A stretch of DNA of 64,000 bases from Neptuniibacter marinus (GTDB lineage Bacteria; Pseudomonadota; Gammaproteobacteria; Pseudomonadales; Balneatricaceae). Shown here in pieces: positions 29,283-62,708 of the stretch. A model generated the notes under the pieces. The model saw only the letters and a list, made by a program, of their open reading frames with translations. It had not been told where the DNA came from and made no database searches. Numbering within the stretch: position 1 is the stretch's first letter; every line of letters begins with the position of its first letter. The DNA lies in contig NZ_LUTR01000006.1 of the NCBI RefSeq assembly GCF_001597725.1, positions 1-64,000 on the forward strand, given 5' to 3'. The translations under genes were made by a program, and so were the position numbers.

Positions 29283-29318
29283 TTTATACATATGATTTTT
29301 CTTTACTAGGATGCCTCT

Positions 29319-31800: not shown

Positions 31801-31924
31801 TTTTTTGGGATATTGATCGTATGTTTTTTAATTTTTCTTGCTTGAGATTAAAAGCTAATGTTTTAAATAATTCTTGACCTTTTTATTAAAAACTTTATAT
31901 TTTATTTATATTGTAAGCTAGTAG

Positions 31925-32326: not shown

Positions 32327-32431
32327 TAACTATTAGTCTTTTGTTTTTGTAGAATCGAGTGGTTTTATATATGAAATCATGCTGTTTTTCTTGTTGGGAT
32401 TGTTTAAATTTAATTTTTTTTTTGGTTTTTT

Positions 32432-33728: not shown

Positions 33729-33793
33729 TATTTTTGGCTTTATTTGCCTATGTTAGATTGTTATATGTTTTATTAATATGCCTAGGATTTTAT

Positions 33794-34759: not shown

Positions 34760-35838
34760 AAGTTGTTCTTTTATCCGCTGCATTTTCGATTCATACAGCA
34801 CGTTGGGCTAATGGTCTTGTGTCGCGTGGTGTTGAGGTGCATCTTATTTCGCTGCATGAGAATGCCCATGTGCTTGATTCTAAGGTATATCTGTACAAGC
34901 TTAAAAATAAAGCGCCGCTTGGTTATTTTTCGGCGGTGTTTGAAGTACGGAAATTATTAAAAGAAATTCAGCCTGATTTAGTGAACGCACATTATGCGAC
35001 GGGTTATGGCTTGTTAGCGCGTTTAGTCGCGTTTAAACCCGTTTTACTTTCGGTGTGGGGAAGTGATGTTTACGACTTTCCTGAAAAGTCTGTTGTACAT
35101 CGCTGGTTGTTAAAAGGCAATTTAAAATCGGCCACCTCTATTGCGTCCACTAGCCATTGTATGTCCAGCAAGACTGGAGAAACATTTAAGCATAGTAAAG
35201 TATTTATCACGCCTTTTGGAATCGACGAGTCGTTGTTTAAACCTTTACCTGCACTAGAGGGTAGAGGCTCTAATAAAATTGTTCTTGGTACTGTGAAGAC
35301 TCTTAAAAGAAAGTACGGGATTGATATTTTAATTAAGGCGTTTGCAAAAACCTGGTATGAGCTTGATAAAAATAGGGATCTATTTTTAGAAATTTCAGGA
35401 GGTGGGCCAGATTTGAATGCTTTGCAACAGCTAGCCAAATCTTTAGGTGTTGATAAGCAAGTTGTTTTTCATGGACAGGTTGATCATGCTGATGTTCCTA
35501 ATATATTAAACCGGTTAGATATATACTGCGCGTTTAGTCGCATGGATAGTGAAAGCTTTGGTGTGGCTATATTAGAGGCGAGTGCTTGTGGAAAACCTGT
35601 AATAGTGTCAGATGCTGATGGCCCAGCTGAAGTGACTTTGGATGGGAAAACAGGTTTAGTTGTGCCTAAAGAGGATGTGGTTGCTTCTGCTGAGGCAATG
35701 ATTCAATTGATTGAAAACGAGCAGCTTAGAAAAAAAATGGGCGACGCCGGTCGTCAACATGTTTTAGAGCATTATACTTGGGAAAAGTCTTTAGACTTGA
35801 TGGTTGAGGCTTACCGGCAAACAATGTCCATGCGCTAG
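34756..35838 (+). CDS. Glycosyltransferase family 4 protein
   Basis: 360 residues with a GTG start overlapping the previous stop. GT4 features: 'HTARWANGLVSRGVEVHLIS', 'VNAHYATGYGLLARL', 'SVWGSDVYDFP', 'GTVKTLKRKYGIDILIKAF' and donor-binding 'ESFGVAILEASACGKPVIVS' with the EX7E motif. It transfers an unknown sugar to the lipid-linked repeat unit. G+C rises again here, marking the right border of the AT-rich central cassette. Confidence 0.87.
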   Translation: MKVVLLSAAFSIHTARWANGLVSRGVEVHLISLHENAHVLDSKVYLYKLKNKAPLGYFSAVFEVRKLLKEIQPDLVNAHYATGYGLLARLVAFKPVLLSVWGSDVYDFPEKSVVHRWLLKGNLKSATSIASTSHCMSSKTGETFKHSKVFITPFGIDESLFKPLPALEGRGSNKIVLGTVKTLKRKYGIDILIKAFAKTWYELDKNRDLFLEISGGGPDLNALQQLAKSLGVDKQVVFHGQVDHADVPNILNRLDIYCAFSRMDSESFGVAILEASACGKPVIVSDADGPAEVTLDGKTGLVVPKEDVVASAEAMIQLIENEQLRKKMGDAGRQHVLEHYTWEKSLDLMVEAYRQTMSMR

Positions 35839-49040: not shown

Positions 49041-49417
49041 AGGAGATTAGTCGGGTGGAAAAAGAATATTTTTCTATATCTAAGGAAGCTGTATTAACTA
49101 TTAAGTATTAGTTATGTGTCTAAATGAAAAAGAGGAGGTTCTGAATAGATAGATTAAGCAGAACGCAGCCGAGTTATTTTAGATCGCTGCTTAACTGGTA
49201 AGAAATTGATTTAATTAAATAAAATGGTGGGCCTAGCAGGACTCGAACCTGCGACCGATCGATTATGAGTCAAAAACAAACATATAATTCGGTGTCACAT
49301 AGTATAACGCTATGTAACTAAGTTATTGATATGTAAGGTTTTATGTGTACTTTGAGATCATTCTCAGTAATATAGAATCTTCATGTGATGTAACCCTAGT
49401 GTGACCCCGGAGAATGT
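49041..49417. other. tRNA 3' flank, left attachment site and integrase leader
   Basis: No gene. The first part is the former 3' flank of tRNA-Ile2. The stretch 49221-49271 is the left copy of the att repeat. Sequence 49272-49417 is the left end of the element and holds the integrase leader, a short inverted repeat (acatag/ctatgt near 49298-49316) and a GTAACCCTA motif at 49390-49398 that recurs at the right end. Confidence 0.6.
49221..49271 (-). repeat. Left attachment repeat: displaced 3' half of tRNA-Ile2
   Basis: This 51-nt stretch is identical to 62560-62610. It contains the 3' half of the tRNA (minus strand, including CCA) and ends at the anticodon-loop core GATTATGAGTC. After the core the sequence no longer reads as tRNA, so this copy was cut off by the insertion. 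Confidence 0.93.
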
Positions 49418-50614
49418 GTGACTAGACAATTCAACTTCACTAAGCAGGCTATAGAAAGCTTGCCTCTTCCTGAAAGCCGTATCGAATATCGTGACGATAA
49501 AATACCTGAATTACGGCTTCGTGTTACTCCAAAGGGCATCAAAAGCTTTTCTGTCTTCAAACGTATCTCTGGCGGCCATCCAGTTCGTGTGACTTTGGGG
49601 AAATATCCAGTTTTAACTCCAGTGAAAGCAAGGTCTCTAGCGCTTCAGCATTTAGCAGACCTATGTGGCGGTGTTAATCCTAATGAAAAAAGGCGTGTAG
49701 ACGCTTTAGCCGAGATTACTTTACTTGAGGTTTTTGATGCTTATAAAAAAAGCAGAAGCCTGAAGAAAACCACGCTGACGGGGTATGAAGGCGTTGTAAG
49801 AAACCACCTAGCTCGTCAGCTGAATAGGCCCTTAAAAACTATAGACCGCAAAATTGTTGCTGATATTCACTCCAAAATAGGATCTAAGGCACAAGCAGAT
49901 CTCACAATGAGAGTTTTGCGAGCTTTGTTCAATTTCGCAAAGTATGAATACTGCTATCAGGATGGCAGCTCAATTTTCTCTGAAAATCCTGTAGAGATCC
50001 TTTCCCACCGTAAGCAATGGAACAACGTCAGGCGTAGACAAACACATCTACGTCCCGGTGAATTGTCACTTTTCTATCGCGCCCTACAGTCTGTGAAAGC
50101 TACCGAGACACCAACAGGGAAATCAATATGTGACGCGATGCTGTTTGCTCTTTTCACAGGCTTAAGACGAGGCGAAATCTTCAATCTGCAATGGAGAAAT
50201 GTAGATGAGAGAGCAAAAATTTTTACTGTAATGGACACTAAAAATGGTTTGCCTTTAGAGCTCCCAATTACAGATACGATCCAAGATGTTTTCTCAAGAC
50301 AATCTAAGGCTTTCGGATCTATGTATGTTTTCGCTGCCGAGAATTCTTATGGGCAGATCAGGGAGCCCAAAAAAGTTGTAGCTAAGGTGAAGCAGCTTTC
50401 ATCAACTAGCTGTGACTTTCACGATCTACGCAGAACATTCGCAACCTCTGCAGAACACTTGGATATTGGAAGCTATAAGCTCAAACGGCTTATGAATCAT
50501 GCAACTGGTAGGGACGATGTTACAGCCGGATATGTGATTCTGACCGCCGAAACGTTAAGGCATTCAGCAGAGAAAATTCAGAAATATTTTATGGAGCGGA
50601 TTTTACCGGAATAG
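49418..50614 (+). CDS. int: Tyrosine recombinase/integrase
   Basis: 398 residues from GTG 49418 ('ggaga' 5 nt upstream). Layout: N-terminal arm-binding DUF4102-like domain (1-90, 'LRLRVTPKGIKSFSVFKRIS'), SAM-like core-binding domain (about 100-195) and a catalytic domain with Arg250 ('TGLRRGEI'), His335/Arg338 ('HDLRRTF'), His361 ('LMNHA') and Tyr372. It would insert and excise the element at the tRNA anticodon-loop core. The catalytic set is complete, so it may be active. Confidence 0.93.
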   Translation: MTRQFNFTKQAIESLPLPESRIEYRDDKIPELRLRVTPKGIKSFSVFKRISGGHPVRVTLGKYPVLTPVKARSLALQHLADLCGGVNPNEKRRVDALAEITLLEVFDAYKKSRSLKKTTLTGYEGVVRNHLARQLNRPLKTIDRKIVADIHSKIGSKAQADLTMRVLRALFNFAKYEYCYQDGSSIFSENPVEILSHRKQWNNVRRRQTHLRPGELSLFYRALQSVKATETPTGKSICDAMLFALFTGLRRGEIFNLQWRNVDERAKIFTVMDTKNGLPLELPITDTIQDVFSRQSKAFGSMYVFAAENSYGQIREPKKVVAKVKQLSSTSCDFHDLRRTFATSAEHLDIGSYKLKRLMNHATGRDDVTAGYVILTAETLRHSAEKIQKYFMERILPE

Positions 50615-50660
50615 CTCCTCCCTTCTCAAAGTAACTCAAGAAATCATAAGGATGGTGTAT

Positions 50661-50921
50661 ATGGATAACGTTGTATCGCTCCCTTTCGTAGAGAGAGAGT
50701 CTAAAGAGCTTCAATCATTGCTCTTTAAGAGTTTCGATAACCTGGCGCGTCAGGCTGGGTTTCAGTCATCTCGACTGGTTGGACAGCAGCCTATTAGAAT
50801 CCCTGAGCTGTTTGATTCGTTGAAGCAGATCAAAGCTCTAGTAGATTCAATAGAAAACCAAACTGCTCTGATTTGCTGGTATTCAGAGGGTGGTAATTTA
50901 GAAAGAGGGAGGACGGATTAA
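50661..50921 (+). CDS. Small unknown protein upstream of trbJ
   Basis: 86 residues from ATG 50661 (aagga 8 nt upstream; the ATG at 50652 is too close to that site). Soluble, no signal peptide, no recognised domain. It includes 'FDNLARQAGFQSSRLVGQQP'. Its stop overlaps the trbJ start (TAATG), so it is part of the transfer operon. Function is unknown. Confidence 0.6.
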   Translation: MDNVVSLPFVERESKELQSLLFKSFDNLARQAGFQSSRLVGQQPIRIPELFDSLKQIKALVDSIENQTALICWYSEGGNLERGRTD

Positions 50922-51703
50922 TGATTAACTCTGTTCAAAAGAGGATTTTTTTACTGATCCTTAGCCTCTCTTCCATCGAGGTTTATGCCGGAGGCGGCGG
51001 TTTAACTGGCGGCGCGACTGAGATAACTCAGATCGCAAATAACGCTGAGTTGGGCGCGGTTCTTAGCCAGGAAACTCGACAGGTTTCCAACCAGTTGACC
51101 CAGATTCAGAACCAAATCCAGCAGTATCAGCAACTTGTGAATCAGTACAACAACATGGTTCAGAACACGCTTAATCTGCCTAACCATATCTGGGGTAATG
51201 CAACCCAGCATTTGCAGCAGTTAGCGAACATTGTGCAGACCGGCGAAGCCTTGGCCTACTCCGGAACCAACCTAGATTCTCAGTTTCAGGCTAAGTTTCG
51301 GTCATATGACGATCACCTGGTGCGTGACTACAACCGCGCTAACTTCAAATCTGAATATCGTGACTGGTCTGAAACCAACCGTGATTCGATCCGCTCGGCA
51401 CTACGTGCCGCGGGCTTGCAGTCTGAGCAGTTCGCAGATGAAAACAGCACTCTCCGTCAGATTGAGTTGCTATCTCAATCGTCTACTGGACGGCTTCAGG
51501 CGATACAAGCCGGCTCTCTGATAGCTGCCCAGCAGGTACGCCAAACGCAAAAACTGAGACAGTTAATCATGTCTCAAATTCAGCTCAGTGTTGCGGCAGA
51601 GACATCGATCCAGACTGAAAAGGATCGCGACCAGGCTATCCGTGAAAGCTACTTCACCAACGGTCTGAAAGACCTGGATGTTAACGATGGACAGGGGTTC
51701 TAA
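50921..51703 (+). CDS. trbJ: TrbJ-like (VirB5-type) conjugative transfer protein
   Basis: 260 residues: signal peptide ending near 'EVYAGG', then the Gln/Asn-rich helical region typical of TrbJ ('QLTQIQNQIQQYQQLVNQYN') and long helices. TrbJ/VirB5 proteins sit in the periplasm or at the pilus tip and help recipient contact; in RP4, trbJ and trbK are linked to entry exclusion. The last 17 residues are shared with the next gene product. Other trb genes are missing. Confidence 0.85.
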   Translation: MINSVQKRIFLLILSLSSIEVYAGGGGLTGGATEITQIANNAELGAVLSQETRQVSNQLTQIQNQIQQYQQLVNQYNNMVQNTLNLPNHIWGNATQHLQQLANIVQTGEALAYSGTNLDSQFQAKFRSYDDHLVRDYNRANFKSEYRDWSETNRDSIRSALRAAGLQSEQFADENSTLRQIELLSQSSTGRLQAIQAGSLIAAQQVRQTQKLRQLIMSQIQLSVAAETSIQTEKDRDQAIRESYFTNGLKDLDVNDGQGF

Positions 51704-51705
51704 GC

Positions 51706-51921
51706 ATGAACAGGACAGTGATTATAAATATCGTTTTAGCGGTGGTTTTAGGTGGGGCCGGCTACGGCATTACACAGTTCAATTTGAGTAACGACGTGAC
51801 GGTCATCGAGCAGGAAAAGTGCGATGCAGAATGCCTTGCGGGCAGAGAGCGAGAGAACCGTAAGAGGTACTTCACCAACGGCCTGAAAGACTTAGACGTT
51901 AATGACGGTAAGGGGTTTTAG
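51706..51921 (+). CDS. Small membrane-anchored protein in the trbK position
   Basis: 71 residues: an N-terminal hydrophobic helix (about 5-25), a short periplasmic part with two Cys ('EKCDAEC'), and a C-terminal tail YFTNGLKDLDVNDGKGF that nearly repeats the TrbJ tail. It sits between trbJ and trbL, where RP4 has trbK (entry exclusion). A role as exclusion or surface protein is inferred from position only. It begins 2 nt after trbJ and ends 1 nt before trbL. Confidence 0.65.
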   Translation: MNRTVIINIVLAVVLGGAGYGITQFNLSNDVTVIEQEKCDAECLAGRERENRKRYFTNGLKDLDVNDGKGF

Positions 51922-51922
51922 C

Positions 51923-53173
51923 ATGCGAAATTTTCTATCGATACCAGTGCTGGCCATCTTCGTTTTTGCGCTTCTTCCTGGTGAAGCGATGGCCGCTATC
52001 AATCAAAATAACATCTTGGACGGTTTGCTCACTACGTTTCGATCTGAAGCAGCGAGTTGGGAAACACTGATAACTGATTACGCCACGCGCTTATTCTGGA
52101 TTCTGGCCGTGATCGAACTGACTTGGGTTGGCATTACTCTTGGGCTTGGCCGCAATGAGCTGGATAACGCTTTAGGGACTATCGTCCGTACGATCCTAGT
52201 CATTGGGTTCTTCTGGGTGCTGGTTGTAAACGGTTTCGACTGGGCCGGTGATATTATCGCAAGTCTTCGCCAGGTCGGACAGGACGCTGCGACCGCAGCA
52301 GGAGCGCAGACTCAGCTGTACCCTTCTGCGATTGTTGAGCTGGGGCTGATCATCACAGGTCGCATATTCTCTGAGATAGGTGTTACTTCTCCTTCCTCCT
52401 GGATACTGCTGATCCCTGCTTTGATTATCATGGTTTGCTTCTGTGTGATCACTGCCGAGATGGTGCTGATCCTGGTTGAAAGTTACCTGGTAACAATTGG
52501 AGGTATTATCTTCCTTGGCTTTGGTGCCTCTCGCTTCACCAATAACTTTGCTGTGAACTACTTCAAGTACGCTCTTAGTGTTGGCGTTAAACTCATGCTG
52601 CTCCAGTTCCTGATAGCCTTATCCTGGGGAACGTTGTTCCAGTGGCAGGTTGATGTTGAGCTAACAGAAGATCAGATCCTCACGCTTACAGCGGCATCAA
52701 TCGTGATCGCTATTCTGGTAAGCCGTTTACCTGGTGTTGCGGCTGCTATGATCAATGGTTCCGCCTTTGGCGGAGGTTTAACTCCAAGTAGTGCAGCGTC
52801 TGCATTCATGGGTGCTGCGACCGGTGCGGCAGCAGGTACAGCGGCTGGAGCTAAAACGGCCACTGGTGGCGGCATGGCAGTAGCGGAGGCTGCTAAACTT
52901 GCCTCAGCTCAAGGTGCGACAGGGATGGAAGCCGTTACCCAAGCTGCTAAGAACCTCGCTTCACATACTGGTTCCGATATTGCCGGAAAGCTCGCTGGAA
53001 ACCTGCAAAACCAGCATGGTGTTATGGGCGCGCGAGTAGCAGACAGTATGAGATCAGAGCGTCTATCTAGCGTCAGCTCAAATAACTCGATATCTGCTGG
53101 GAATTCGGAATCGTCTACAGGTGATGCTGCATATATTTCACCAGCAGCGAACATCAATCCTGAATCGAAGTGA
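51923..53173 (+). CDS. trbL: TrbL-like (VirB6-type) conjugative transfer membrane protein
   Basis: 416 residues from ATG 51923. A signal-like N-terminus ending 'GEAMAA', about six membrane helices (to residue 285), and a long Ala/Gly/Ser-rich C-terminal tail typical of TrbL. It would form the inner-membrane channel of an IncP-type transfer apparatus with a helper's other subunits. Coding composition is visibly more G+C-rich than the defence genes to the right. Confidence 0.87.
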   Translation: MRNFLSIPVLAIFVFALLPGEAMAAINQNNILDGLLTTFRSEAASWETLITDYATRLFWILAVIELTWVGITLGLGRNELDNALGTIVRTILVIGFFWVLVVNGFDWAGDIIASLRQVGQDAATAAGAQTQLYPSAIVELGLIITGRIFSEIGVTSPSSWILLIPALIIMVCFCVITAEMVLILVESYLVTIGGIIFLGFGASRFTNNFAVNYFKYALSVGVKLMLLQFLIALSWGTLFQWQVDVELTEDQILTLTAASIVIAILVSRLPGVAAAMINGSAFGGGLTPSSAASAFMGAATGAAAGTAAGAKTATGGGMAVAEAAKLASAQGATGMEAVTQAAKNLASHTGSDIAGKLAGNLQNQHGVMGARVADSMRSERLSSVSSNNSISAGNSESSTGDAAYISPAANINPESK

Positions 53174-53199
53174 TAAGCCATATTAGGGGAGGAACTACA

Positions 53200-53526
53200 A
53201 TGCGTTCAAAACGGATTTTTATAAGAGTTAGTGATGAGGAAAAGGCTGAGATTGCAGAAAGTGCCGATGGCTGTTCTATTAGCTCTGGAGCATATCTGAG
53301 GGCCTTAGGAATTGGGCATCAAGTAAAGAGTACTTTGGATCAGCAGATGATACTGAAGATTCTGAGAATAAATGCGGATCAAGGCAGGCTTGGGGGATTA
53401 TTGAAGCTCTGGTTATCTGGTGCTGAAAAAGGTACAGAGGGCATGTCTTTGGATATTCGTGACTTGTTGAGGCAGATAGAAAATACACAGAAGGAATTGA
53501 AAGAGTGTGTTGGATCTTTGAAATAG
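53200..53526 (+). CDS. traJ: TraJ-like relaxosome accessory protein
   Basis: 108 residues from ATG 53200 ('gggaggaacta' upstream). A ribbon-helix-helix-type N-terminus ('KRIFIRVSDEEKAEIAE') and the conserved 'INADQGRLGGLLKLWLSG' segment identify the TraJ/MobC-type family that binds oriT beside the relaxase. The relaxase gene that normally follows is absent. It lies 26 nt after trbL. Confidence 0.85.
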   Translation: MRSKRIFIRVSDEEKAEIAESADGCSISSGAYLRALGIGHQVKSTLDQQMILKILRINADQGRLGGLLKLWLSGAEKGTEGMSLDIRDLLRQIENTQKELKECVGSLK

Positions 53527-53561
53527 CCTAAAGCTTGTTTCGGAGTTATGTGTCTCTAGGT

Positions 53562-53603
53562 GGGATGCTCAGTTGAAGAATGAAAACTTCAACTGAGCAT
53601 CCC
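53562..53603. repeat. 17-bp perfect inverted repeat after traJ
   Basis: gggatgctcagttgaag (53562-53578) and cttcaactgagcatccc (53587-53603) with an 8-nt loop. No T-run follows, so it is a weak intrinsic terminator candidate. Its place next to a TraJ-type gene makes an oriT or relaxosome-protein site another option. Confidence 0.9.
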
Positions 53604-53918
53604 AGGCATTCTAGAAAGAGGGGTTTAAATACATGGCTGAAAAACTTACACGATATTATCCTGCTAATGCCTTGATTGACTCGGAAACAAGGGCTGTTTT
53701 TCTCCAAGATGCTTTAGAAACGAGAGATTTTGGCTATATATTTCGGGTGAAAAAAAAGTCCTAGAAACCGTAGACAATACGGGCCAATCTAAGCAAATAA
53801 TTAAAGTGCTAGAGAAAGGCTAGTTCAACTCAGTAACTCACTTCGAGCATATATATTTAGAGCTCGTAAGCTAATTGAAAGCCTTACACCTTACATTACA
53901 TAGCTTGAAGTATGAGTG
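53604..53918. other. Gap between transfer and methyltransferase modules
   Basis: The stretch holds only the broken antitoxin gene at 53633-53764. Downstream of it I see AT-rich sequence with no further gene and no clear terminator, up to the convergent end of the nuclease-like gene at 53919. Confidence 0.5.
53633..53764 (+). pseudogene. Truncated addiction-module antidote (HigA-like) gene
   Basis: 43 codons starting 'MAEKLTRYYPANALIDSE' resemble the first 40 residues of the chromosomal/plasmid antidote family ('..EKL..YDPA..L...E....FL.DA.ETGD..YI'). The frame stops just after an A8 run, before the helix-turn-helix. No toxin gene is adjacent. I read it as a decayed toxin-antitoxin remnant. 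Confidence 0.45.
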
Positions 53919-54557
53919 TTAAACCATCGGAAGCAATCTGTGGCGTATTGTAAATGGAGAGCCACAAGTATGTCTCTTGTGATGAGTCTCAAACACTGGG
54001 AAAAACTCCTTTTTCAAAATTATTGGGCTACTTTGTAGATTAGTTAGAGATTGTCTTTTTATTAAAGCCGAATTTAGTTGTTGGAATGCAAAGTCGTGAT
54101 CACCATCCATCACATAACCGAGCATGCATCCATATGGTAATTTTTCCGCGTATTTAGCTGTGACATAGCGCACAACCCCTTGTTCGACATAATCACCAGC
54201 TAGAGAGGCTTTTCTCTTATCTTGATCAGAAAGGATATTTAGCTTTTTGCATTCATACGCAATGTATTTTTCATGATCTTGGTCCAGAAAAAGGGCCATG
54301 TCCAAAATGCCTTTGGTTGTATAGTCTCCAACGGTATCTCTTTCGCGTAATTTAAAATGAATATCAAGAAAGCCATATTGGGTTATCGCTCGATCATCGC
54401 GTAGATGATCTACAAGCCGTTGTGTAATATCGTCCTCACGCTCTCTTTGACTTAACCTACTTACTACATCAGGCCAAACGCGCTCTACACATTTGATTAC
54501 TAGCTTGTCTATATCTATCAGACGGTTTCGCCAGGCCGAAGAACTTCCTATTATCAT
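53919..54557 (-). CDS. PD-(D/E)XK nuclease-like protein
   Basis: 212 residues without a close family I can name. A nuclease-like pattern is visible: Asp86 in 'GILDMALFLD' followed by Glu102-x-Lys104 in 'YIAYECKKL', with an upstream 'REREDDITQRLVDHL' helix. This arrangement is typical of restriction-endonuclease folds. It starts 9 nt after the methyltransferase gene with an 'aagga' site, so it is the third gene of that operon. A restriction partner is the natural guess, not proven. Confidence 0.6.
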   Translation of the reverse strand: MIIGSSSAWRNRLIDIDKLVIKCVERVWPDVVSRLSQREREDDITQRLVDHLRDDRAITQYGFLDIHFKLRERDTVGDYTTKGILDMALFLDQDHEKYIAYECKKLNILSDQDKRKASLAGDYVEQGVVRYVTAKYAEKLPYGCMLGYVMDGDHDFAFQQLNSALIKRQSLTNLQSSPIILKKEFFPVFETHHKRHTCGSPFTIRHRLLPMV

Positions 54558-54566
54558 TGATTATCC

Positions 54567-57500
54567 TTAATCTGCCAGACTAAATAAATCTGAAGCTATA
54601 GTATCTGCGTCAGCCATTGCTGTTGATTTTAACCAAAACCTTTTTTTTCTAGGCTTAACCATATAAAGAACATCATCGATAAATACTCTAAGATCAGGTA
54701 TTAATTGGAAATTACTTGATATTCCTTCTGGTAAGGATTTCCAAATACTCTGTAATATGGTGTCCAGCTCACCATTATTTCTAGTAGTAAATATTTTCTT
54801 GCTTTGGTCTTCTGTGATGTTAACACCGAGGATTACGAGGTCAGCTGAGTATCCTACAAGTTCTGCTCTAGCCTGGTATGGTTTTTCAAGCCACTTTGAG
54901 AGTGCAATGGATAGGCTTTCAGAATATGACTGCCAATCTTCAATGTACGTATCTGTCCATAGTTTAGGCAAAGTCTTTGATCGTGCATTTGGCTGCATGC
55001 TAGGAATTATTTGACTTAGAGTTTCCTCAATTAAGCTAACTTCTACTTCAGACAAACCAAAGTATTTGTATATTATTTGGTCAATATCATTTCTATAGGA
55101 TGTTATGTCACTTCTTAAGAGGTCGTCTTTTTGGCATAAAAGCATGTCCATAAAGTCATTGGCCATATTAAAAGCTTGTTCTGCAGCAAAACTGTCGGCT
55201 AGCTCTTCTATTGAAGGAAAAGGGATATCGAGAAGTTGTTCTTGATGTACCTTATCTCGTTCCATACCAGTATTAGAACTATGATGAAATAAGAACCATG
55301 CAGTCAATGAACTGTTTAAGAGGACTGTCAAAAACTTAGCGTTTTGCGTATCTTCTTTTTCAAAATGAATCGCTTGTATTGAATCCCTGAAGCTAAGATC
55401 TTGATTCGAAAAGCTGGCTCGAAGTCTTCCTTGTGTGCTCTCAACACCTTGAGGTATGAGAACATGCGGTGCTTTAAAGCCTTCTTCATAGCCTTTCCTA
55501 TATACAATATCAGTGCTCCACGAGCCTGATTCGATCTCTGGAAGCACTAATGGTTGAAATCGCTTTGTTTCTAAATGCGGGACCTTTGTGACAATACTTG
55601 ATTTGGCTGTTTTATAGGAAATATCCTCTAATTTATGCTCCTGAGCTGGTATAAAACCCTGACCAATAATCCATTTTCCATGCCCTGCGTTAACTTTTTT
55701 CTTTGATTCTTGATAAGTAATTAATCTGTTTGTTAATGAGGGTAGCCTATTTAAATACTGAAATAATTTGGCCTCTGGAGTCGTCATCCACATGCGACGT
55801 TTCATAAGAAGCTGATCTTCAATTACTTGATTAATAGAGAGTTTAGCTTGATCGTTTCGACTCAGCGTAATCATTCTCTTTGTTTTTAAGTTTAAGTCGG
55901 CTTTAGGTGTCCAGTATTCAAACTTATAATCGCTGATTTTATTTTTGGGCTTAAAGATCATTAATGCAGTTGGAGCATCGCCGCCATCAAATAGCTGAAA
56001 ACGCATATCGGCAAAGTTAATTACTCGAAGGAGGTGAATGTTATTCAGCCACTCTCTTCGTGCTTTTGTTACAGTGTTGCTATGATTTGTTAGAAAACTG
56101 GTTGCTTTCAACAGAAGGGCAATAACACCTTCTTGGTTTGTGTGTTGTATTGTTTTCCAGGCAAATCCCCAAGCAACTTCCCTTGCTGGCATTCCACATT
56201 GATTGTCTTTACACCACTTTTCTGCATTTACCTGTTCACCACGACGACTCACCCATGGTGGATTACCGATGATTAAATCATATTGCTCTGTACCTTTTGG
56301 AACTTCAAAAAAATCTACTGAGCGTAATGTTTTTCCGAATAGTTTTGGTAATAATCGTCCTTTTTCCATTAAGGATAATATTTCTGTCGGTCGAGTGTTT
56401 TCTAATAACGCGATATATAGCGAGAAAGAGGCGACACGAATAGACTCTTTTTTGATATCGAAACCATGTAGGCGGTTAAGCATAGATAGCAACGCTGGCC
56501 AAGTAGGTCGGTCACTACGATGGTTTATACGCCAATCATCGATCATTTTCTCAAGCAGTCTAACAAGGAAAATACCAGATCCACACGAAGGGTCTACGTA
56601 ATTTCCTTTTGCTTTTTGCTTCTTAGAAAGCTGTTCCCAAGCTTGTTCAGTTACCAGGTCAGCCAAGAACATTGGTGTATAGTATGCACCGGAAGCCCGC
56701 TTGCTAGTGGGATTGAATCCTAGGAAACGATCGTAAACTGCACTGATTAAGTCAATAGGGATGAACTTAAAATCATATGGCCAGAACTGAAGTTGACCTG
56801 ATGAAATACTAATATTTCCTGCTCGAAAATCAGATAATATTTTTACGTGTTTTGTCGAGATATGCTCCACTCGGTCATTTTCATCAAATGAGCAAGGAGC
56901 AACGAATAGATCGCCATTAAAATGATGTTTCAATAAATTGAATAATTGGTTGAAATCAGAAACATCACCTTCATTTAATAGAGTTCTCAGGGATTTTATA
57001 TGAGGGCTATTAGTCGCGGTTTGGAAGTAATCGTCTGTGATAATTTCCTTATCTTCGAGATAGGCAATGAACATTACTTGCATGAGCAATGCTTGTGCAG
57101 ATTCTAGTGATATTCCATTATCAATTAAACGTTTAACAGTGACTTCAAGATTGCTTAATAATACCTGGTCAACTCTGTGCTTTGAATCAAACTTTTCTTC
57201 ATTGCTTGCAATGAATCGTCCAGATTCAACTCCTAAAATAAAGTCTTTTAACTCTAGAGCATCATCAATAAGACCAAAAACTTTAACTAATTTATCAGAC
57301 TGATGACTAGCAGTTTCCGGCAGTTGGGCTAATGAATAGACTCTTAGTGTATCTCTAGATATCACAAGAAGAATGGTCGCTAGACCTTGATTCCAGAGAG
57401 CTTTATGAACAGCATCTATTTCTGGTTGGTTAAGTTCATCTTGGACAAGAATGGCAATGGAAGGCACACCAGAAATGCAGTGGATTGCAGCTATGTTTAG

Positions 57501-57626
57501 TTCTTCAAATGCTTTACGGATAACTGAGCTATGCGGGATACCACTTAAGTTATCACCAGATCGGATAAACTCAGGTGATTTACGATCTTCTAGCCGTAAT
57601 GTTTTTAACCATCTTGCTGAGATCAT
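54567..57626 (-). CDS. N6-adenine DNA methyltransferase (Eco57I-like)
   Basis: 1019 residues. Central methyltransferase with SAM motif 'DPSCGSGIF' (345-353), a preceding 'SGAYYTPMFLADLV', and catalytic 'NPPW' (455-458), then a long C-terminal region likely for target recognition. The N-terminal 180 residues contain 'AILVQDELNQPEIDAVHKAL' and show no obvious endonuclease motif, unlike single-chain type IIG enzymes. It follows the MerR-like gene by 1 nt and is followed by the PD-(D/E)XK-like gene. Probably the modification unit of a restriction or phage-defence system. Confidence 0.85.
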   Translation of the reverse strand: MISARWLKTLRLEDRKSPEFIRSGDNLSGIPHSSVIRKAFEELNIAAIHCISGVPSIAILVQDELNQPEIDAVHKALWNQGLATILLVISRDTLRVYSLAQLPETASHQSDKLVKVFGLIDDALELKDFILGVESGRFIASNEEKFDSKHRVDQVLLSNLEVTVKRLIDNGISLESAQALLMQVMFIAYLEDKEIITDDYFQTATNSPHIKSLRTLLNEGDVSDFNQLFNLLKHHFNGDLFVAPCSFDENDRVEHISTKHVKILSDFRAGNISISSGQLQFWPYDFKFIPIDLISAVYDRFLGFNPTSKRASGAYYTPMFLADLVTEQAWEQLSKKQKAKGNYVDPSCGSGIFLVRLLEKMIDDWRINHRSDRPTWPALLSMLNRLHGFDIKKESIRVASFSLYIALLENTRPTEILSLMEKGRLLPKLFGKTLRSVDFFEVPKGTEQYDLIIGNPPWVSRRGEQVNAEKWCKDNQCGMPAREVAWGFAWKTIQHTNQEGVIALLLKATSFLTNHSNTVTKARREWLNNIHLLRVINFADMRFQLFDGGDAPTALMIFKPKNKISDYKFEYWTPKADLNLKTKRMITLSRNDQAKLSINQVIEDQLLMKRRMWMTTPEAKLFQYLNRLPSLTNRLITYQESKKKVNAGHGKWIIGQGFIPAQEHKLEDISYKTAKSSIVTKVPHLETKRFQPLVLPEIESGSWSTDIVYRKGYEEGFKAPHVLIPQGVESTQGRLRASFSNQDLSFRDSIQAIHFEKEDTQNAKFLTVLLNSSLTAWFLFHHSSNTGMERDKVHQEQLLDIPFPSIEELADSFAAEQAFNMANDFMDMLLCQKDDLLRSDITSYRNDIDQIIYKYFGLSEVEVSLIEETLSQIIPSMQPNARSKTLPKLWTDTYIEDWQSYSESLSIALSKWLEKPYQARAELVGYSADLVILGVNITEDQSKKIFTTRNNGELDTILQSIWKSLPEGISSNFQLIPDLRVFIDDVLYMVKPRKKRFWLKSTAMADADTIASDLFSLAD

Positions 57627-57627
57627 A

Positions 57628-58077
57628 TTAGTTCACTTTCACTAAGCCCAGTTGCAGTTGGGCTTGTTGTTGGTCAGATATGCCAAGGTATTTATAAACC
57701 TTAGCTTGTGGAGACTGCAGATCAACGAGAATTCCTTCTCGCGTAACCTCTTCAGGAATTATTCTGGAGCATCTGCATGTGTTTATGCTTATAAATAAAT
57801 AAGGCGTTGTATCTGGATCCTGAGGTTCCCTAATAGAGGTATAAAGTGATTCGGAGAACCTGCTAATAAACTGAATGGAAATACCTAGTGAATCATGTAT
57901 ATGCTTTACTGTTGCAAAAAAAAGCAGATCCCCAAAATCATATCTTGTAGCGGATCTTTCCTTCGTTTCTCGCCTAGCATACGGGGCCAGTGTATCAGTC
58001 CACGATCTGAGTTGATGGCGACCGAGCTCCAAAGCTACACATATATCTTTAGTTGTTATTTTAATACTTTCCGACAT
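57628..58077 (-). CDS. MerR-like regulator of the methyltransferase operon
   Basis: 149 residues. The N-terminal part has a MerR-type winged-helix pattern ('TTKDICVALELGRHQLRSWT', 'ATRYDFGDLLFFATVKHI') followed by an uncharacterised C-terminal part. It is the first gene of the three-gene operon, 1 nt before the methyltransferase. It most likely controls the operon, but could instead be a DNA-binding part of the system. Confidence 0.65.
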   Translation of the reverse strand: MSESIKITTKDICVALELGRHQLRSWTDTLAPYARRETKERSATRYDFGDLLFFATVKHIHDSLGISIQFISRFSESLYTSIREPQDPDTTPYLFISINTCRCSRIIPEEVTREGILVDLQSPQAKVYKYLGISDQQQAQLQLGLVKVN

Positions 58078-58674
58078 GTCAGAATCCTTTCCAGAACTGT
58101 GCTTAGTTTAGCTCAGTTCTGTAACAAAGGACACTAAATGCAGTGCTTTAAACTAAGATATTATGTTTCACCTGATCGGAAGAGGGGCAGTATAGATGGT
58201 GATTTGGCCTCAATTTAGCGGTAGCTCTTTGTTGTCGAAGACCAGGATTCGTTGAGCTAGAAAGAGCGAATAAGATTAAGTGAAAGTGTACAGAAAACTT
58301 GTTTTGTGCGCACACTCACACATCCTGCCATCCAGTGTAATTGTAATCTAGTGAATTTTACTTAATTCAGCAGATTAGCGAGGGAGAGAAGGAGGGAATC
58401 CGGTAGAATTTGGTTAAATTTGGTTAATTTTACTTAAATCTGTTTAATTTTATTTAATTAAGCAGCTAGGGCCCACTTCATACCAAGAGAGTGCGCTGAT
58501 TCTACTATTTGTCCACTTTTAGATGGGGGAGGAAAGGGGTCTGGAGCTAACTTTCTACTCTTGGTCCACTTTTGGTAGCGGTCAATATTCGGTGTTTGAG
58601 AGCTGCTTAGCGGCCCTTCTCAGATATTTTAGGGATTTAGAAGGATAAATGTATGGATAGAAACAGATAGAGCC
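58078..58674. other. Noncoding AT-rich region with direct repeats between two operons
   Basis: No gene. It contains the promoter side of the MerR-like operon and the downstream side of repA. Two repeat pairs stand out: aattttacttaattcagcag at 58354-58373 with a close copy at 58446-58465, and tctactatttgtccactttt at 58501-58520 with a close copy at 58554-58573. An AT-rich block (58410-58460) lies between them. It could be part of a replication origin. Confidence 0.5.
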
Positions 58675-59565
58675 CTACTGATCGTAGAGAGGCTTAGCAT
58701 CTAACAGCCACTTTTGAGGATTTCTTTTCACAGGTACATGAGTCTTACTGGGATTCAGGATAAGGTGTTCACCAGTTACTTCAAACTTTGCTTCAGGATA
58801 CAAAACAGCTACTTCTCGTATTTTTCGCAGGAAGTGACGGCGAAATTGACGAAGCTCCATATGGCTTGTCCCAAACTGTTCGGCTATTGAACTCCAAGAA
58901 ATGCGCGTTGAGTGTTTCATTTTGAAATATCTATGAGTTAGCCAGCAGTATATGTCCAGGGCTAATGGGGACTGCTTTAATGTTCTAATTACGGTTAAGT
59001 CTAGCGGTACAGCGTTCTTAACTGCTTCATGAAAGAATGCAGCAGATAACGTGACAGTTAAAGGGGTATTTGATCTTTCAGTCGAGTGCTCCCACCACAC
59101 TGAATGTTCATCTGCAACACGATATCCGCGCTCAGTAGATTTTTCCTTGCTGCTCGAATGGAATGACACTGTTGAACTAAAAAGTTGTTGTGCGTGTTTT
59201 CGTATACGGGGCAAGCTGCCATTCGTTCCGCCAGTTGCTTTACCTAACCCTGCTTGTTGCATGAAGTTATTAAAGCTGCGGCCTAGTTGTATTTCCCGGC
59301 TACCTGTTTTCTTTGCCTCTGTTGTTATCCAGCAGATAATTAGGCGAGGAATACTTCCCCATGGTAAGCCTATCTCAGAGGGGGTAAGAATCGATAGTAT
59401 GTGATTCCCGTTGATTCGCTTGTATTCTGAACCATCGATTTGTCTATGAGGAAGAGTTGTCATAATTAACTCTCTAGGCATGAAGCACACTTCTCCACTC
59501 ATCCATGGGTCTCGTTCTTGGATGTACACACTCGCCTTAATTAGCTTTCGATCGCACGGTCTCAT
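58675..59565 (-). CDS. repA: RepA-type replication initiator
   Basis: About 296 residues from ATG 59565, chosen because upstream codons overlap alpA. Features match the plasmid RepA family: 'EIGLPWGSIPRLIICWITTE', 'REIQLGRSFNNFMQQAGL', 'TGGTNGSLPRIRKHAQQLF' and a second winged-helix segment ('ISWSSIAEQFGTSHMELRQF'). It would bind iterons and start replication of the excised circle; an iteron-like array lies at 61048-61141. Start position is uncertain. Confidence 0.8.
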   Translation of the reverse strand: MRPCDRKLIKASVYIQERDPWMSGEVCFMPRELIMTTLPHRQIDGSEYKRINGNHILSILTPSEIGLPWGSIPRLIICWITTEAKKTGSREIQLGRSFNNFMQQAGLGKATGGTNGSLPRIRKHAQQLFSSTVSFHSSSKEKSTERGYRVADEHSVWWEHSTERSNTPLTVTLSAAFFHEAVKNAVPLDLTVIRTLKQSPLALDIYCWLTHRYFKMKHSTRISWSSIAEQFGTSHMELRQFRRHFLRKIREVAVLYPEAKFEVTGEHLILNPSKTHVPVKRNPQKWLLDAKPLYDQ

Positions 59566-59581
59566 GTGGTTTCTTAAACCT

Positions 59582-59782
59582 CTACTGAGAGTGCAGGTTT
59601 TGATGATTTTGGCTGTGCTTTCTCTGTTCAATCCAAATCTTGAAATCTTCTTCAGGAAATAAGCGTCTACGTCCAACTTTGACTGAAGGAGGCATCGGCT
59701 CTCCTCTGCATATACGGTTTCTAATAGTGCCGACAGTCATATGTAATTGTTCTGCAATTTGGTCAATTGTATAGAAATTCAT
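59582..59782 (-). CDS. alpA: AlpA-family helix-turn-helix protein
   Basis: 66 residues with a MerR-like single HTH ('MNFYTIDQIAEQLHMTVGTI', 'RRLFPEEDFKIWIEQ') typical of AlpA/excisionase-like regulators in integrative elements. Such proteins activate or direct excision by the integrase. It precedes repA by 17 nt and diverges from the unknown 335-residue gene across a short repeat-containing promoter region. Confidence 0.87.
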   Translation of the reverse strand: MNFYTIDQIAEQLHMTVGTIRNRICRGEPMPPSVKVGRRRLFPEEDFKIWIEQRKHSQNHQNLHSQ

Positions 59783-59897
59783 TTTAATTAATCCGAATAA
59801 ATGAGTTATGAATTGATATTCATAATTACATAGAGTTATCCTGTTATTAATTTTGTGAAACTGTATTATTTTAATAATTAATCCGAATGGAATTTCT
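59783..59897. promoter_or_regulatory. Divergent promoter region with a 13-bp direct repeat
   Basis: aattaatccgaat occurs at 59786-59798 and 59876-59888, each within about 12 nt of one divergent start codon (alpA and the unknown gene). Such paired sites at both ends of a short AT-rich intergenic region look like operators for one regulator controlling both promoters. Confidence 0.55.
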
Positions 59898-60905
59898 ATG
59901 AAAAGGAAAGTAGGTCGCCCGAGAAAAGAGGAGCGAAATCGTCCTACTCAGAAGCTCAGGACAATGCTATGGGCAAGGGAATTAAAGAGTGTTGTTATTG
60001 ATGATGCAGATATGCATAGGCCGCAAGGAGAGAAGGTTGAAAATGAAATTCAAGATAAGTTCGGTGTAAGTATCTCAGCGACACAATTCTTTTATTGGTG
60101 GAAAGGAGCTCAAGATCCTTCTATAACAACGGTAAAGCAGCTTGAGAATAATGGATTTAAACGTGATTTTTTGTACGCTGAAAAATCAATATTCTGTTGT
60201 GAGGGGCGGCATTTCTCAGTTCTAGATGCTTGGGCTGATACTAAAAACCAGAAAGCCGGTAGTACTTCTATCGAAGATATTCACACCATTCTTTTCAGGC
60301 TCGATACTGAGTGGAGTCCATGTCATGGAAGGCTTGGTGTCCTTGAGCGTTATCAATTTGGATCTGATGATCTTTTTAGTGATTGTTTTGGATTAGATCG
60401 CTCAGATGGTGCTCTAAAGGAGCATTATTCAAGAATGGGATGGAATAAGCAGGGTCTATACCCAGGGCCGAAAATTGATGATCGCTTCTATCGGTATTAT
60501 GACCCATATAATCTATCCAGTTTATTGGTCTGGCTAATTTCAGTTTCACCGATTTACGTCGATTTTGGGGGTAAGGAGTTTGAAAGGCTAGCTTTAGACT
60601 TAGCTACTGCCACTCTCTGCTTCCTGCTTATCAGAAATACTCTTTCTGGAGATATGATGTTTTACCGCTCATCTGGCTTAGCTCAGTTGATAGTTGCGCT
60701 TACTGAACTATTTTTTAGCCCGGATATATCAGATGAAACGTTAATCGATATTTTAACTTATGAAAAAACTGATTGGCCTGTTAGATCGTCAGAGGATAAT
60801 TCTGAGGTTGTTATGATCAAGGTTGTTACTTCCCTGAGATCTTTTTACCACGACTGGCTAGAGCGATGCGGCTATTCTTTAAAGGAAATAAGGGCCTTGC
60901 TGTAG
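59898..60905 (+). CDS. Unknown protein with AT-hook-like N-terminus
   Basis: 335 residues, no recognised family. A basic N-terminus 'MKRKVGRPRKEERNR' contains an AT-hook-like GRPRK. The next 60 residues ('QDKFGVSISATQFFYWWKGA') could form a small helical DNA-binding unit. The rest is helical and soluble with many aromatic residues. It is divergent from alpA/repA. A DNA-binding or regulatory role in the element is plausible; a defence role cannot be ruled out. Confidence 0.6.
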   Translation: MKRKVGRPRKEERNRPTQKLRTMLWARELKSVVIDDADMHRPQGEKVENEIQDKFGVSISATQFFYWWKGAQDPSITTVKQLENNGFKRDFLYAEKSIFCCEGRHFSVLDAWADTKNQKAGSTSIEDIHTILFRLDTEWSPCHGRLGVLERYQFGSDDLFSDCFGLDRSDGALKEHYSRMGWNKQGLYPGPKIDDRFYRYYDPYNLSSLLVWLISVSPIYVDFGGKEFERLALDLATATLCFLLIRNTLSGDMMFYRSSGLAQLIVALTELFFSPDISDETLIDILTYEKTDWPVRSSEDNSEVVMIKVVTSLRSFYHDWLERCGYSLKEIRALL

Positions 60906-61232
60906 TCTGATTGCTCCCGATTTTTTCGCATGCGAAATTTTATGAACTACTTAATAACTACAGGGCCATATCTATATATGGTTATTAAAGGTGTATATAG
61001 GGGGGTTGTTTAACTTATTGAAATGCAAGAGTTATATTAGCATTGGTGTGTACGTTTATGCATAGATTCGTGTATGTTTATGCGTAAAACCGTGTACGTT
61101 TATGCGTGGAAATCAATTCATGAGCGTGTACGTTTATGCGTGGATAAGTGAGTTGCTAACAGCTAATATCCAGGTTTTGGACACTTTTTCTACAGGGTTG
61201 AAAGAAAGTGTTGTTTGGAAGGGATTAGAAAT
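60906..61232. other. Noncoding region with palindrome and iterons (candidate origin)
   Basis: No gene. It contains the 14-bp palindrome tttcgcatgcgaaa (60924-60937), a second inverted repeat around 'ccatatctatatatgg' (60965-60980), a G-run, and four iteron-like repeats (listed separately). AT-rich sequence surrounds them. This is the best candidate for the element's replication origin. Confidence 0.6.
61048..61141 (+). repeat. Four iteron-like repeats, gtgtacgtttatgcgt
   Basis: Copies lie at 61048-61063, 61070-61085, 61092-61107 and 61126-61141. The first three start exactly 22 nt apart, the last 34 nt further. Single-base differences are gca/gcg near the end and tac/tat in copy 2. Spacing of two helical turns is typical of initiator-binding iterons and fits the RepA in the same element. 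Confidence 0.88.
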
Positions 61233-61262
61233 AAAAAAGCCACCTGAATGAGGTGGCTTTTA
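61233..61262. terminator. Bidirectional intrinsic terminator
   Basis: aaagccacct (61236-61245) and aggtggcttt (61251-61260) form a perfect 10-bp stem with a 5-nt loop and A/T runs on both sides. It can end transcripts from the MazF-like gene (minus strand) and from the left. Confidence 0.8.
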
Positions 61263-61420
61263 GAACTTCTTTATGCAGCGGGCCGTTTCCGGCAGAAGCC
61301 TCAGTCTAAGCTGCTTTGACCAAGGTCATATCTCTTACTAGGTGCGCTTTCGCGCTCAGGTATAATCTAAGCCATTTTATGGTTTATTGCAAGTAATAGG
61401 CTAGCCTAATGGGTATTAGT

Positions 61421-62356
61421 CTAGGCTAACTCTTCTTCCTCTACTGGAGGAGTGGTAGCTGCCTCTAGATCATCCCACAGCTGTTGATTAGCCTTTCTAA
61501 GCTCCTCTATTTCTAGCTCAAGTACTTGTTTACTGGCCTCTAGAGTCTTTACTTCTGACTGGGTCCTATCAAGGTCGTATAGAAAGTTGTTACCACCAAC
61601 AGCTTTTAAGGCAGCTTTTTTGATTTCAACAACATCGTCATTGCTTAGTTTTTTTTCCAGCCGCTTGTCATACACTTTTCTCTGCCCATTGTAATACCGA
61701 AGTGGGAAAAGCCTGTGCCCAGAAACTAGAGTTATACTGGCTGCTTTGGCAAAGCAGACAGGTTCTGAGAACGCAACTAGATCTCCTGGAAGGCTATTGA
61801 TTTCCACTACCGTGTTCGAATCTTTGGCTTTAGATTTTGTGCTTAACGGTACTACTAATGCAGGGTCTTGTTTGCTTGATAGTATGACTACCATTCTTCT
61901 CTTAACCATTTCGAATGGAAGAGGTGAATTGAAATCTTTTATGACCTTTGATCTATTTAATGAGTGGTTTACTTCTTGGTCAAAATATCCAAAGTCGCAC
62001 TCAGCAATTCTGCCCCTTATCAACTTTGAGCCGTTGGAACCATGTCGTTCTGATATGGATTCTGTGGAATATGTGACAGGTTCTAGAAAGACTTTGCATA
62101 GCGTTTTGGTAGTAGACTGATTTGTTATGTCTATTGAAACAACTTTCCAAGATTCAGCGCTCTCACTAGTAAACTTTTTCCTGATGAAAATATTCTTATC
62201 AGTAGGGTCGTGAGGCAATTTTATGGTGTCTGAATTGCTAACGATTTCTTTGCTTAGTCTTTTGGAATTAACATTGTTTATGTACTCCGTTACAAATATC
62301 GGCATGCTTTTCCTTACCATTGTGCTGAGGCTTAATTTCTTAGATATTAACTGCAT
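61421..62356 (-). CDS. PemK/MazF-like protein with long N- and C-terminal extensions
   Basis: 311 residues. A MazF/PemK-like barrel spans about 113-255 ('RGRIAECDFGYF', 'MVKRRMVVILSSKQ', 'LVVPLSTK', 'AFSEPVCFAKAASITLVSG', 'DDVVEIKKAALKAVG'). Before it are about 112 extra residues; after it come a coiled coil (about 262-297) and an acidic end. MazF toxins cut RNA and pair with a small antitoxin; none is found next to it. Start uncertain: ATG 62356 or ATG 62320, neither with a clear binding site. Last gene before the right att site. Confidence 0.75.
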   Translation of the reverse strand: MQLISKKLSLSTMVRKSMPIFVTEYINNVNSKRLSKEIVSNSDTIKLPHDPTDKNIFIRKKFTSESAESWKVVSIDITNQSTTKTLCKVFLEPVTYSTESISERHGSNGSKLIRGRIAECDFGYFDQEVNHSLNRSKVIKDFNSPLPFEMVKRRMVVILSSKQDPALVVPLSTKSKAKDSNTVVEINSLPGDLVAFSEPVCFAKAASITLVSGHRLFPLRYYNGQRKVYDKRLEKKLSNDDVVEIKKAALKAVGGNNFLYDLDRTQSEVKTLEASKQVLELEIEELRKANQQLWDDLEAATTPPVEEEELA

Positions 62357-62559
62357 ATATTACAGCACAGTTGATCTATTTCTATCTCTGTATTCTGTAG
62401 ACGAATGTAACCCTAGAGTAACCCAGAGAAAGAGTTAGTTTAGCTTAAGGAGAGGTGTCTGATCTGAGAGGGAGCTGTAAGCTATAGGGTTACTGCTTTT
62501 GTAACCCTATGTTTTAGTATTAATGCGGTTTTTTTCTGTAATGTGCTGATTTTAAAGAG
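62357..62559. other. Right-end noncoding region with GTAACCCTA arm-like sites
   Basis: No gene. GTAACCCTA occurs at 62407-62415 and 62501-62509 and inverted at 62485-62493. The last two form a 10-bp hairpin (62484-62510). The first is followed by 'gagtaacccagagaa', close to the sequence after the single left-end copy at 49390. These are candidate integrase or excisionase arm sites. Confidence 0.55.
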
Positions 62560-62610
62560 AAAATGGTGGGCCTAGCAGGACTCGAACCTGCGACCGATCG
62601 ATTATGAGTC
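62560..62610 (-). repeat. Right attachment repeat
   Basis: Identical over 51 nt to 49221-49271. It supplies the 3' half of the intact tRNA-Ile2, so the element carries a replacement 3' half, as is usual for tRNA-targeting integrases. The crossover core is the shared GATTATGAGTC (62600-62610). Confidence 0.93.
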
Positions 62611-62640
62611 GAGCGCTCTAACCAACTGAGCTATAGGCCC
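62564..62640 (-). tRNA. tRNA-Ile2 (anticodon CAU), CCA encoded
   Basis: 77 nt on the minus strand: acceptor GGGCCTA...TAGGCCC plus ACCA, D arm GCTC/GAGC, anticodon loop CTCATAA, T arm GCAGG/CCTGC with TTCGAGT. The CAU anticodon within 'CGACTCATAATCG' and the 'GGTCGC' variable/T region match tRNA-Ile2, whose C34 is changed to lysidine by TilS, better than elongator tRNA-Met. The anticodon stem has a C-U mismatch at 27-43. The 3' half comes from the mobile element. Confidence 0.92.
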
Positions 62641-62667
62641 ATTTTCACTTTTTTCTGTAGCCCTATT

Positions 62668-62708
62668 GATTATGAGTCGAGCGCTCTAACCAACTGAGCT
62701 ATAGGCCC
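62668..62708 (-). pseudogene. Orphan 5' half of tRNA-Ile2 plus core
   Basis: 41 nt identical to 62600-62640: the core GATTATGAGTC and the complete 5' half of the tRNA. The 27 nt before it do not form a tRNA 3' half. The sequence to its right is probably the original upstream flank with the native promoter, so this fragment is transcribed ahead of the intact tRNA. Confidence 0.85.

Follow-up and report, generated by a model that had tools for sequence, protein, structure and literature searches.

Where is the nuclease that belongs to a methyltransferase filed as a type IIG restriction enzyme when the protein carries no nuclease motif? This question is raised by a three-gene operon in a stretch of 64,000 nucleotides (nt) from Neptuniibacter marinus (contig NZ_LUTR01000006.1, positions 1 to 64,000), hereafter referred to as the window. 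The operon encodes a MerR-like regulator, an N6-adenine DNA methyltransferase (MTase) to which a target-recognition domain (TRD) is fused, and a small PD-(D/E)XK-like protein, here denoted NU. The reading that we favour, with a probability of roughly 0.62, is that MTase and NU constitute a two-protein restriction-modification system that is type IIG-like, with the nuclease residing on a separate chain. The operon runs on the minus strand from position 58077 to 53919 as three open reading frames (ORFs) in series, separated by intergenic gaps of 1 and 9 nt; the ORF coordinates agree with an earlier description, made from the letters of the window and hereafter called the sequence-only reading, of three genes in one direction with gaps of these lengths. 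The three genes are as follows.

57628–58077, minus strand: MerR-like regulator of 149 amino acids (aa), the first gene of the operon (Pfam MerR_1, 18.3 bits against a cut-off of 21.6)
54567–57626, minus strand: N6-adenine DNA MTase with fused TRD, 1019 aa (Pfam, PADLOC, predicted model)
53919–54557, minus strand: NU, predicted PD-(D/E)XK-like nuclease, 212 aa (AlphaFold2 model, VIA-align rows)

MTase and NU occur as a pair

Four NU queries against a species-genome collection yielded 79 loci (83 stretches were confirmed and the best 80 retained, some of them from closely related species; individual loci are denoted by L numbers). They belong mostly to Alpha- and Gammaproteobacteria, many of them metagenome bins, and NU is also present on single contigs titled Acidobacteria, Dadabacteria, Verrucomicrobiia, Puniceicoccaceae, Gemmatimonadetes, Vicinamibacteria and Rhodothermaceae. 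In 78 of the 79 loci NU is preceded, on the same strand, by an MTase ORF, the single NU without an MTase being that of L077, where the NU match begins only at residue 45. According to the alignments, the MTase–NU junction measures −17 to +24 nt in 75 of the 78 loci, with overlaps of 1, 14 and 4 nt being the commonest, and in each of the three exceptional cases (L058, L071 and L072) the MTase is broken. Among the best 80 of the 83 stretches, the closest relative of the operon is L016 from Candidatus Endobugula sertula (78% identity for NU, 78% for MTase, 51% for the regulator), followed by L017 from Exilibacterium tricleocarpae (56%, 64% and 68%, respectively).

Searches seeded with the MTase profile (E 1e-25, at most two candidates scored per genome) detected the protein in 7 of 398 Pseudomonadota genomes and in 10 of 385 genomes of one class, that is, in 15 distinct genomes. 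A NU-family ORF is located directly downstream of the MTase in all 15, the window's included (the weakest E-values being 2.4e-6 and 4.4e-10), and in each of eight of these regions the downstream ORF is the sole NU match at E 0.1. Ten of the 14 regions besides the window are new; L126, L137, L138 and L139 repeat L053, L089, L091 and L045. The MTase was also matched by 52 plasmid records, and a NU-family ORF follows it in 13 of the 13 plasmid regions inspected; the NU profile used for the downstream-ORF tests contains those 13 plasmid NU proteins. A sample of the PADLOC family PDLC03623, to which the MTase belongs (see below), added no new genome. Distances between the NU proteins mirror those between the MTases (r 0.96 over 66 pairs), and none of 2000 permutations reached this value, the highest being 0.225. 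Viral contigs contributed a single NU locus, L095, whose match is identical to that of contig L056 of Rhodobacter sp. SW2, and none of the 20 MTase matches in phage records covers 80% of the protein, those among the 15 matches listed covering 15–16%. The pairing of MTase and NU is, almost without exception, obligate both ways.

The sequence-only reading had regarded the three-gene operon as the unit. This holds for MTase and NU, the combination of which is near-constant, but not for the MerR-like gene. Of 93 loci looked at, four of them repeats, 78 extended far enough upstream to be judged. The gene directly before the MTase is a MerR-like relative in 46 of the 78 and a different helix-turn-helix (HTH) gene in 7; in the remaining 25 no gene of either kind was found. 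What is conserved is the restriction-modification-like pair of two genes, the regulator being optional.

Several plasmid relatives have other defence-like genes in their vicinity. On plasmid pRSB223 (L011:6085-9776) the MTase is split over two overlapping ORFs, the second of which corresponds to the C-terminal part and is followed by NU.

NU is predicted to be a PD-(D/E)XK-like nuclease

The AlphaFold2 model of NU, based on 74 sequences, has a predicted local distance difference test score (pLDDT) of 90.3 and a predicted template-modelling score (pTM) of 0.87. Its core is a helix-strand-strand-strand-helix-strand arrangement with E41 in a helix, D86 in the second strand and E102-x-K104 in the third. 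All four residues are invariant, in every one of the 74 aligned relatives as well as in all 28 members of a more diverse NU set composed of the window protein, 14 proteins reached via the MTase and 13 from plasmids; columns 102/104 are the sole [DE]xK pair above 90%. The sequence-only reading had singled out Asp86 and Glu102-x-Lys104, and D86 and E102-C-K104 are present at the following site.

54246–54302, minus strand: predicted active site, NU codons D86 to K104 including E102-x-K104 (invariant residues)

In structure comparisons with VIA-align, the leading rows for NU were OkrAI (Z 7.5, root-mean-square deviation 4.0, 146 aligned; OkrAI has 194 residues), NucC (6.5) and Card1 (6.4), and further rows included McrC (6.3), MunI (5.6), the N-terminal part of DrdV (5.5) and Can2 (5.5). 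OkrAI, NucC, Card1, McrC, MunI and the N-terminal part of DrdV are known PD-(D/E)XK enzymes. Since, by the tool's own warning, Z values below 8 may reflect merely a common arrangement, the case for a nuclease rests on the fold, the list of rows and the motif taken together. Foldseek searches with the NU model retrieved nothing significant, the first 50 rows being tyrosine phosphatases with E 0.024 or worse. The window NU has nothing above cut-off in Pfam and no PADLOC or NCBIfam match; its 74 family members lack PADLOC and Pfam matches at E 0.01, and the family profile retrieved no PDB sequence at E 10. The model, the invariant residues and the VIA-align rows, up to Z 7.5, conform to the fold of the PD-(D/E)XK superfamily, and the earlier assignment of the 212-aa protein to this group is borne out by the predicted fold and the invariant D86, E102 and K104. 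The model is a confident one, and we consider NU a PD-(D/E)XK-like nuclease, its activity being predicted.

In RefSeq, NU genes are named 'hypothetical protein' or 'Fis family transcriptional regulator'. The latter name, applied to NU at L006:10952-11662 and L015:7503-8177, is unsupported by the fold model and the motif.

The MTase resembles type IIG enzymes and lacks their nuclease motif

The MTase matches the Pfam families N6_Mtase (6e-16) and Eco57I (1.8e-14), with a further, sub-threshold Pfam match to a TaqI-like specificity domain. The S-adenosylmethionine (SAM) motif and the NPPW motif noticed in the sequence-only reading are located at residues 345-351 (DPSCGSG) and 455-458, respectively. 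The predicted model (pLDDT 85.2, pTM 0.84) is matched in VIA-align by CamA (Z 25.9), MmeI (24.8), BrxX (22.3), DrdV (21.3) and M.BseCI (21.0), the matches spanning about residues 150-870 in a search dominated by residues 149-859. The DPxCGSG and NPPW motifs and the VIA-align matches to CamA, MmeI and M.BseCI, which extend to residue ~860, place the MTase motifs and the TRD on one chain, as in type IIG enzymes. The same affiliation follows from a curated IIG profile: PADLOC 'REase_MTase_IIG' (PDLC03623) covers residues 42-1011 of the window MTase (4.7e-93) and gives 828.5 bits for a Paracoccus member and 718.6 bits for a Ciceribacter member, in both of which NU adjoins the MTase. The suggestion that the system is undescribed must therefore be given up as far as the MTase family is concerned: the MTase is known under the type IIG label, and it is its NU partner that has been overlooked. 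No description of the MTase/NU pair was found in the literature searched (open-licence PubMed Central). Among 57 genomes searched, that of N. marinus included, a full-length MTase is present only in the latter (1582 bits, the next best match scoring 46). The parts of the MTase that are relevant to the argument are listed below.

56253–56264, minus strand: NPPW catalytic motif, MTase residues 455-458 (invariant in 66 of 66)
57273–57626, minus strand: N-terminal alpha/beta domain, residues 1-118, in the position of the nuclease in IIG enzymes and without [DE]xK (model secondary structure, column test on 66 sequences)
55452–55739, minus strand: TRD part, residues 630-725, locally diverged in three clades (close-pair comparison)
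54570–55046, minus strand: C-terminal region, residues 861-1019, with conserved KPxxxRxW...DAD motif (family alignments)

Type IIG enzymes are characterized by nuclease and MTase in one chain (PMC4081073). In 66 MTases, residues 1-260 contain neither a [DE]xK column pair at the 60% level nor a column in which lysine reaches 80%, and residues 861-1019 contain no [DE]xK column pair, in a test that sees PD-(D/E)XK-type motifs only. Thus, the earlier remark that the N-terminus lacks a nuclease signature holds for PD-(D/E)XK motifs in residues 1-260, and the [DE]xK column test did not reveal a cleavage domain joined to the gamma-class MTase in a single chain. The topology of residues 1-118 is suggestive, and suggestive only, of a decayed PD-(D/E)XK domain. 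A common origin of NU and MTase found no support in a profile comparison, which gave a probability of 0.2%, with NU aligned to MTase columns 532-616. The C-terminal KPxxxRxW...DAD region might be a docking site for NU.

Which protein reads the DNA

Two kinds of natural variation point to the MTase as the reader. In nine of 196 close pairs, which are not mutually independent, TRD residues 630-725 fall to 52-62% identity, with the remaining MTase at 79-94%. These pairs come from three clades (L084-L087 with L089; L027/L034; L023/L033), and the identity of their NU proteins is as predicted from the overall distance, the mean residual being +0.006 versus +0.001 in TRD-conserved pairs. TRD divergence is intermediate in a further 46 of the 196. 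NU also keeps all four active-site residues beside an MTase broken by the loss of a large part of its catalytic core in three loci: L058, where about residues 352-870 are lost, L072, where about residues 310-609 are lost, and L015, where the MTase match starts at residue 534. The last is one of 12 near-identical Pseudosulfitobacter plasmids, 11 of which (listed) have an identical MTase match. L071 (in which NU is read across a stretch of N), L009 (a frameshift after the TRD) and L070 (NU is broken too) were excluded from this argument. The diverged TRDs and the loci with broken MTases fit, and point to, an MTase-dependent nuclease, without proving it.

Under the two-protein, type IIG-like reading, fold and motifs suggest that the MTase would bind its site via its own TRD and methylate adenine with SAM, thereby marking host DNA. 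At unmethylated incoming DNA the MTase would dock NU, which would lack specificity of its own and would cut with Mg2+ near the site; because the operon encodes no ATPase or translocase, cutting is expected to occur near the site. Without the MTase, NU would probably be idle. The reading draws on the two-way pairing and the correlated distances, the predicted fold and invariant active site of NU, the IIG-like MTase without a nuclease motif, the TRD and broken-MTase data, the mobile carrier and the defence-like genes around several plasmid relatives. Methylation, cutting and defence by the pair are what we infer from sequences and predicted models.

Several observations weigh against this reading. 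The TRD shows no special divergence in 141 of the 196 close pairs. Residues 151-200 are the most variable part of NU, with identity of 43-60% in L043/L060 despite a conserved TRD, and could carry specificity. The broken loci may be silent or guarded by another MTase. In addition, NU is as small as autonomous restriction enzymes, one of which (OkrAI, 194 residues, Z 7.5) is its best structural row, and its Z values remain below 8, with no significant Foldseek match.

Some of these observations would be expected of an ordinary type II pair, in which NU would be a self-sufficient small restriction enzyme that reads the site of the MTase and the gene in front would encode a controller. The separate genes, the controller-like HTH gene, the size of NU near that of OkrAI and its variable C-terminal part all speak for such an arrangement. 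However, TRD divergence in three clades is unmatched by extra divergence of NU, an intact self-sufficient NU persisting beside broken MTases would leave the host open to attack by that enzyme, and the MTases, though greatly diverged, are accompanied by a single NU family. On the question of an autonomous restriction enzyme, the TRD and broken-MTase data are thus opposed to the size and the variable C-terminal part of NU, and we regard the ordinary type II pair as rather unlikely. Much less probable still is an abortive or addiction module, in which the MTase would be an anti-restriction or sensor partner and a less specific NU would damage cell DNA when the cell is infected or the element is lost. 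Among the VIA-align rows of NU there are indeed effector nucleases, namely NucC (Z 6.5), Card1 (6.4) and Can2 (5.5), and the carrier is a mobile element; but restriction enzymes in those rows have similar scores, survival of intact NU without a working MTase argues against a leashed toxin, and the operon contains no ORF for a signal synthase.

The two-protein, type IIG-like reading can be extended to a broader proposition, for which the odds appear to us about even: that there is a widespread unnamed class whose MTases are IIG-like and nuclease-less, have their own TRD and recruit, in trans, a small PD-(D/E)XK nuclease dedicated to them. Such a class would be a natural intermediate between type I (separate nuclease) and type IIG (fused nuclease), would change specificity via one protein, and would have its MTases filed as complete IIG enzymes. 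If this is true, some systems labelled as single-chain type IIG are two-component systems with an unnoticed cutting subunit, and the counts and cloning choices based on that label are off. Because the TRD and a generic nuclease would sit on different proteins, new specificities may also be obtainable from the pair in compact form.

The regulator gene and its putative operator

The sequence-only reading had a MerR-like protein leading the operon. Its first position is confirmed, and the protein in the same position in L125 exceeds the MerR_1 cut-off (23.9 bits against 21.6), but the window protein remains below it at 18.3 bits; the L017 protein scores 20.9. An inverted arrangement of short arms precedes the gene.

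58092–58121, unstranded: dyad CAGAACTG-N14-CAGTTCTG upstream of the regulator gene, likely operator (conserved in L016)

In L017 the dyad reads CAAAACTG-N14-CAGTTTTG, both arms being altered alike; beyond the window, the CAGAACTG dyad was seen in L016 and L017 alone. Perfect arms of at least 8 within 110 nt upstream occur in 4 of 35 family loci, compared with 2.5% in shuffles; the 35 loci include neither the window nor L017, nor L016 at its likely start. The dyad is likely to be the operator of the regulator gene, through which the MerR-like protein would probably repress or time the operon.

On an Alteromonas plasmid (L005:8001-11963) a MerR-like relative leads two genes that match IetA (7.1e-74) and IetS (8.4e-44); this type of regulator may therefore serve several defence modules.

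The carrier element

The operon is enclosed by direct repeats, 51 bp long and perfect, that delimit an integrative element of ~13.3 kb at a tRNA-Met gene, with the following features.

49221–49271, unstranded: 51-bp direct repeat, left end of the element
62560–62610, unstranded: 51-bp direct repeat, right end of the element, inside tRNA-Met (62564-62640)
49418–50614, plus strand: tyrosine integrase of the element (Pfam Phage_integrase, 7.3e-12)
51902–53526, plus strand: TrbL (51902-53173) and NikA/TraJ-like protein (53170-53526) of the element (family matches)
58675–59676, minus strand: RepA replication protein of the element (Pfam RepA_C, 4.5e-25; plasmid relatives)

Two other genomes of the genus have an empty site, the flanks adjoining without the element. 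Repeats and empty site confirm the mobile location proposed in the sequence-only reading: an integrative element has the operon as its cargo, and the MTase/NU pair would travel with it.

The 5' part of tRNA-Met is repeated at 62662-62700 (element region 49221-62661), so that the element may restore the tRNA it entered. Two element ORFs, 59898-60905 (335 aa, no family above cut-off) and 61421-62356 (311 aa, PemK-like below cut-off), have no PADLOC match. A 63-nt repeat (51640-51702 and 51858-51920), 81% identical, gives two neighbouring ORFs of 260 and 71 aa a near-identical terminal tail of ~17 residues, YFTNGLKDLDVNDGxGF. Elsewhere in the window, the region 28001-35000 has a G+C content of 0.31-0.34, compared with about 0.40-0.45 around it, and is possibly foreign.

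Comparison with known systems

The MTase shares a related adenine MTase core with MADS Mad2 (5.1e-14) and BREX PglX (2.9e-12). The two systems themselves were rejected: the MTase reaches 19.6 of the 720 bits required by the NCBIfam MAD2 profile and 38 of the 400 bits for BREX-2 PglX (NCBIfam), with other BREX PglX profiles lower, and the operon contains no partner genes of either. Type I was rejected as well, there being no translocating HsdR or separate HsdS domain among the three ORFs, and so was DISARM, as no helicase was matched in the 10 scanned proteins (the three of the operon and seven neighbours). The earlier judgement that the layout differs from BREX, DISARM and type I is upheld by scores below the curated cut-offs and by the lack of partner genes in the operon.

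With ordinary type II systems that have an autonomous restriction enzyme, the pair shares separate genes for nuclease and gamma-class MTase and a possible controller gene. However, the restriction enzyme of those systems normally reads its own site, whereas the TRD and broken-MTase data point otherwise here, without proof. The MTase itself resembles type IIG enzymes such as BpuSI, MmeI and DrdV, in the MTase core and fused TRD, in structure and in the match of PDLC03623 over nearly the whole length. Those enzymes are described as single chains (PMC4081073), whereas here the MTase is without a nuclease motif and the nuclease is a downstream gene, as the sequence-only reading had recognized in setting the layout apart from single-chain type IIG. 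As the single-chain feature was looked for and not found, we do not file the pair as type IIG, although its mode of action is probably similar.

A split type IIG system has been proposed for HVO_A0006 and HVO_A0237 of Haloferax volcanii (PMC4389544). There, too, a PD-(D/E)XK protein of ~200 residues is proposed to serve a nuclease-less IIG-like MTase; that protein, however, is a piece with homology to the N-terminus of IIG enzymes and is encoded apart from its MTase, whereas NU is a separate family encoded directly after the MTase. Engineered type I M-S fusions, which are active with a separate HsdR (PMC6158711), likewise combine modification and specificity on one chain and leave the nuclease on another. 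They differ in being engineered and in relying on HsdR, a large translocating subunit, while NU has 212 residues and no motor. If the two-protein reading is true, MTase and NU would be a living form of the step from separate to fused nuclease that is discussed in models of restriction-system evolution (PMC6158711).

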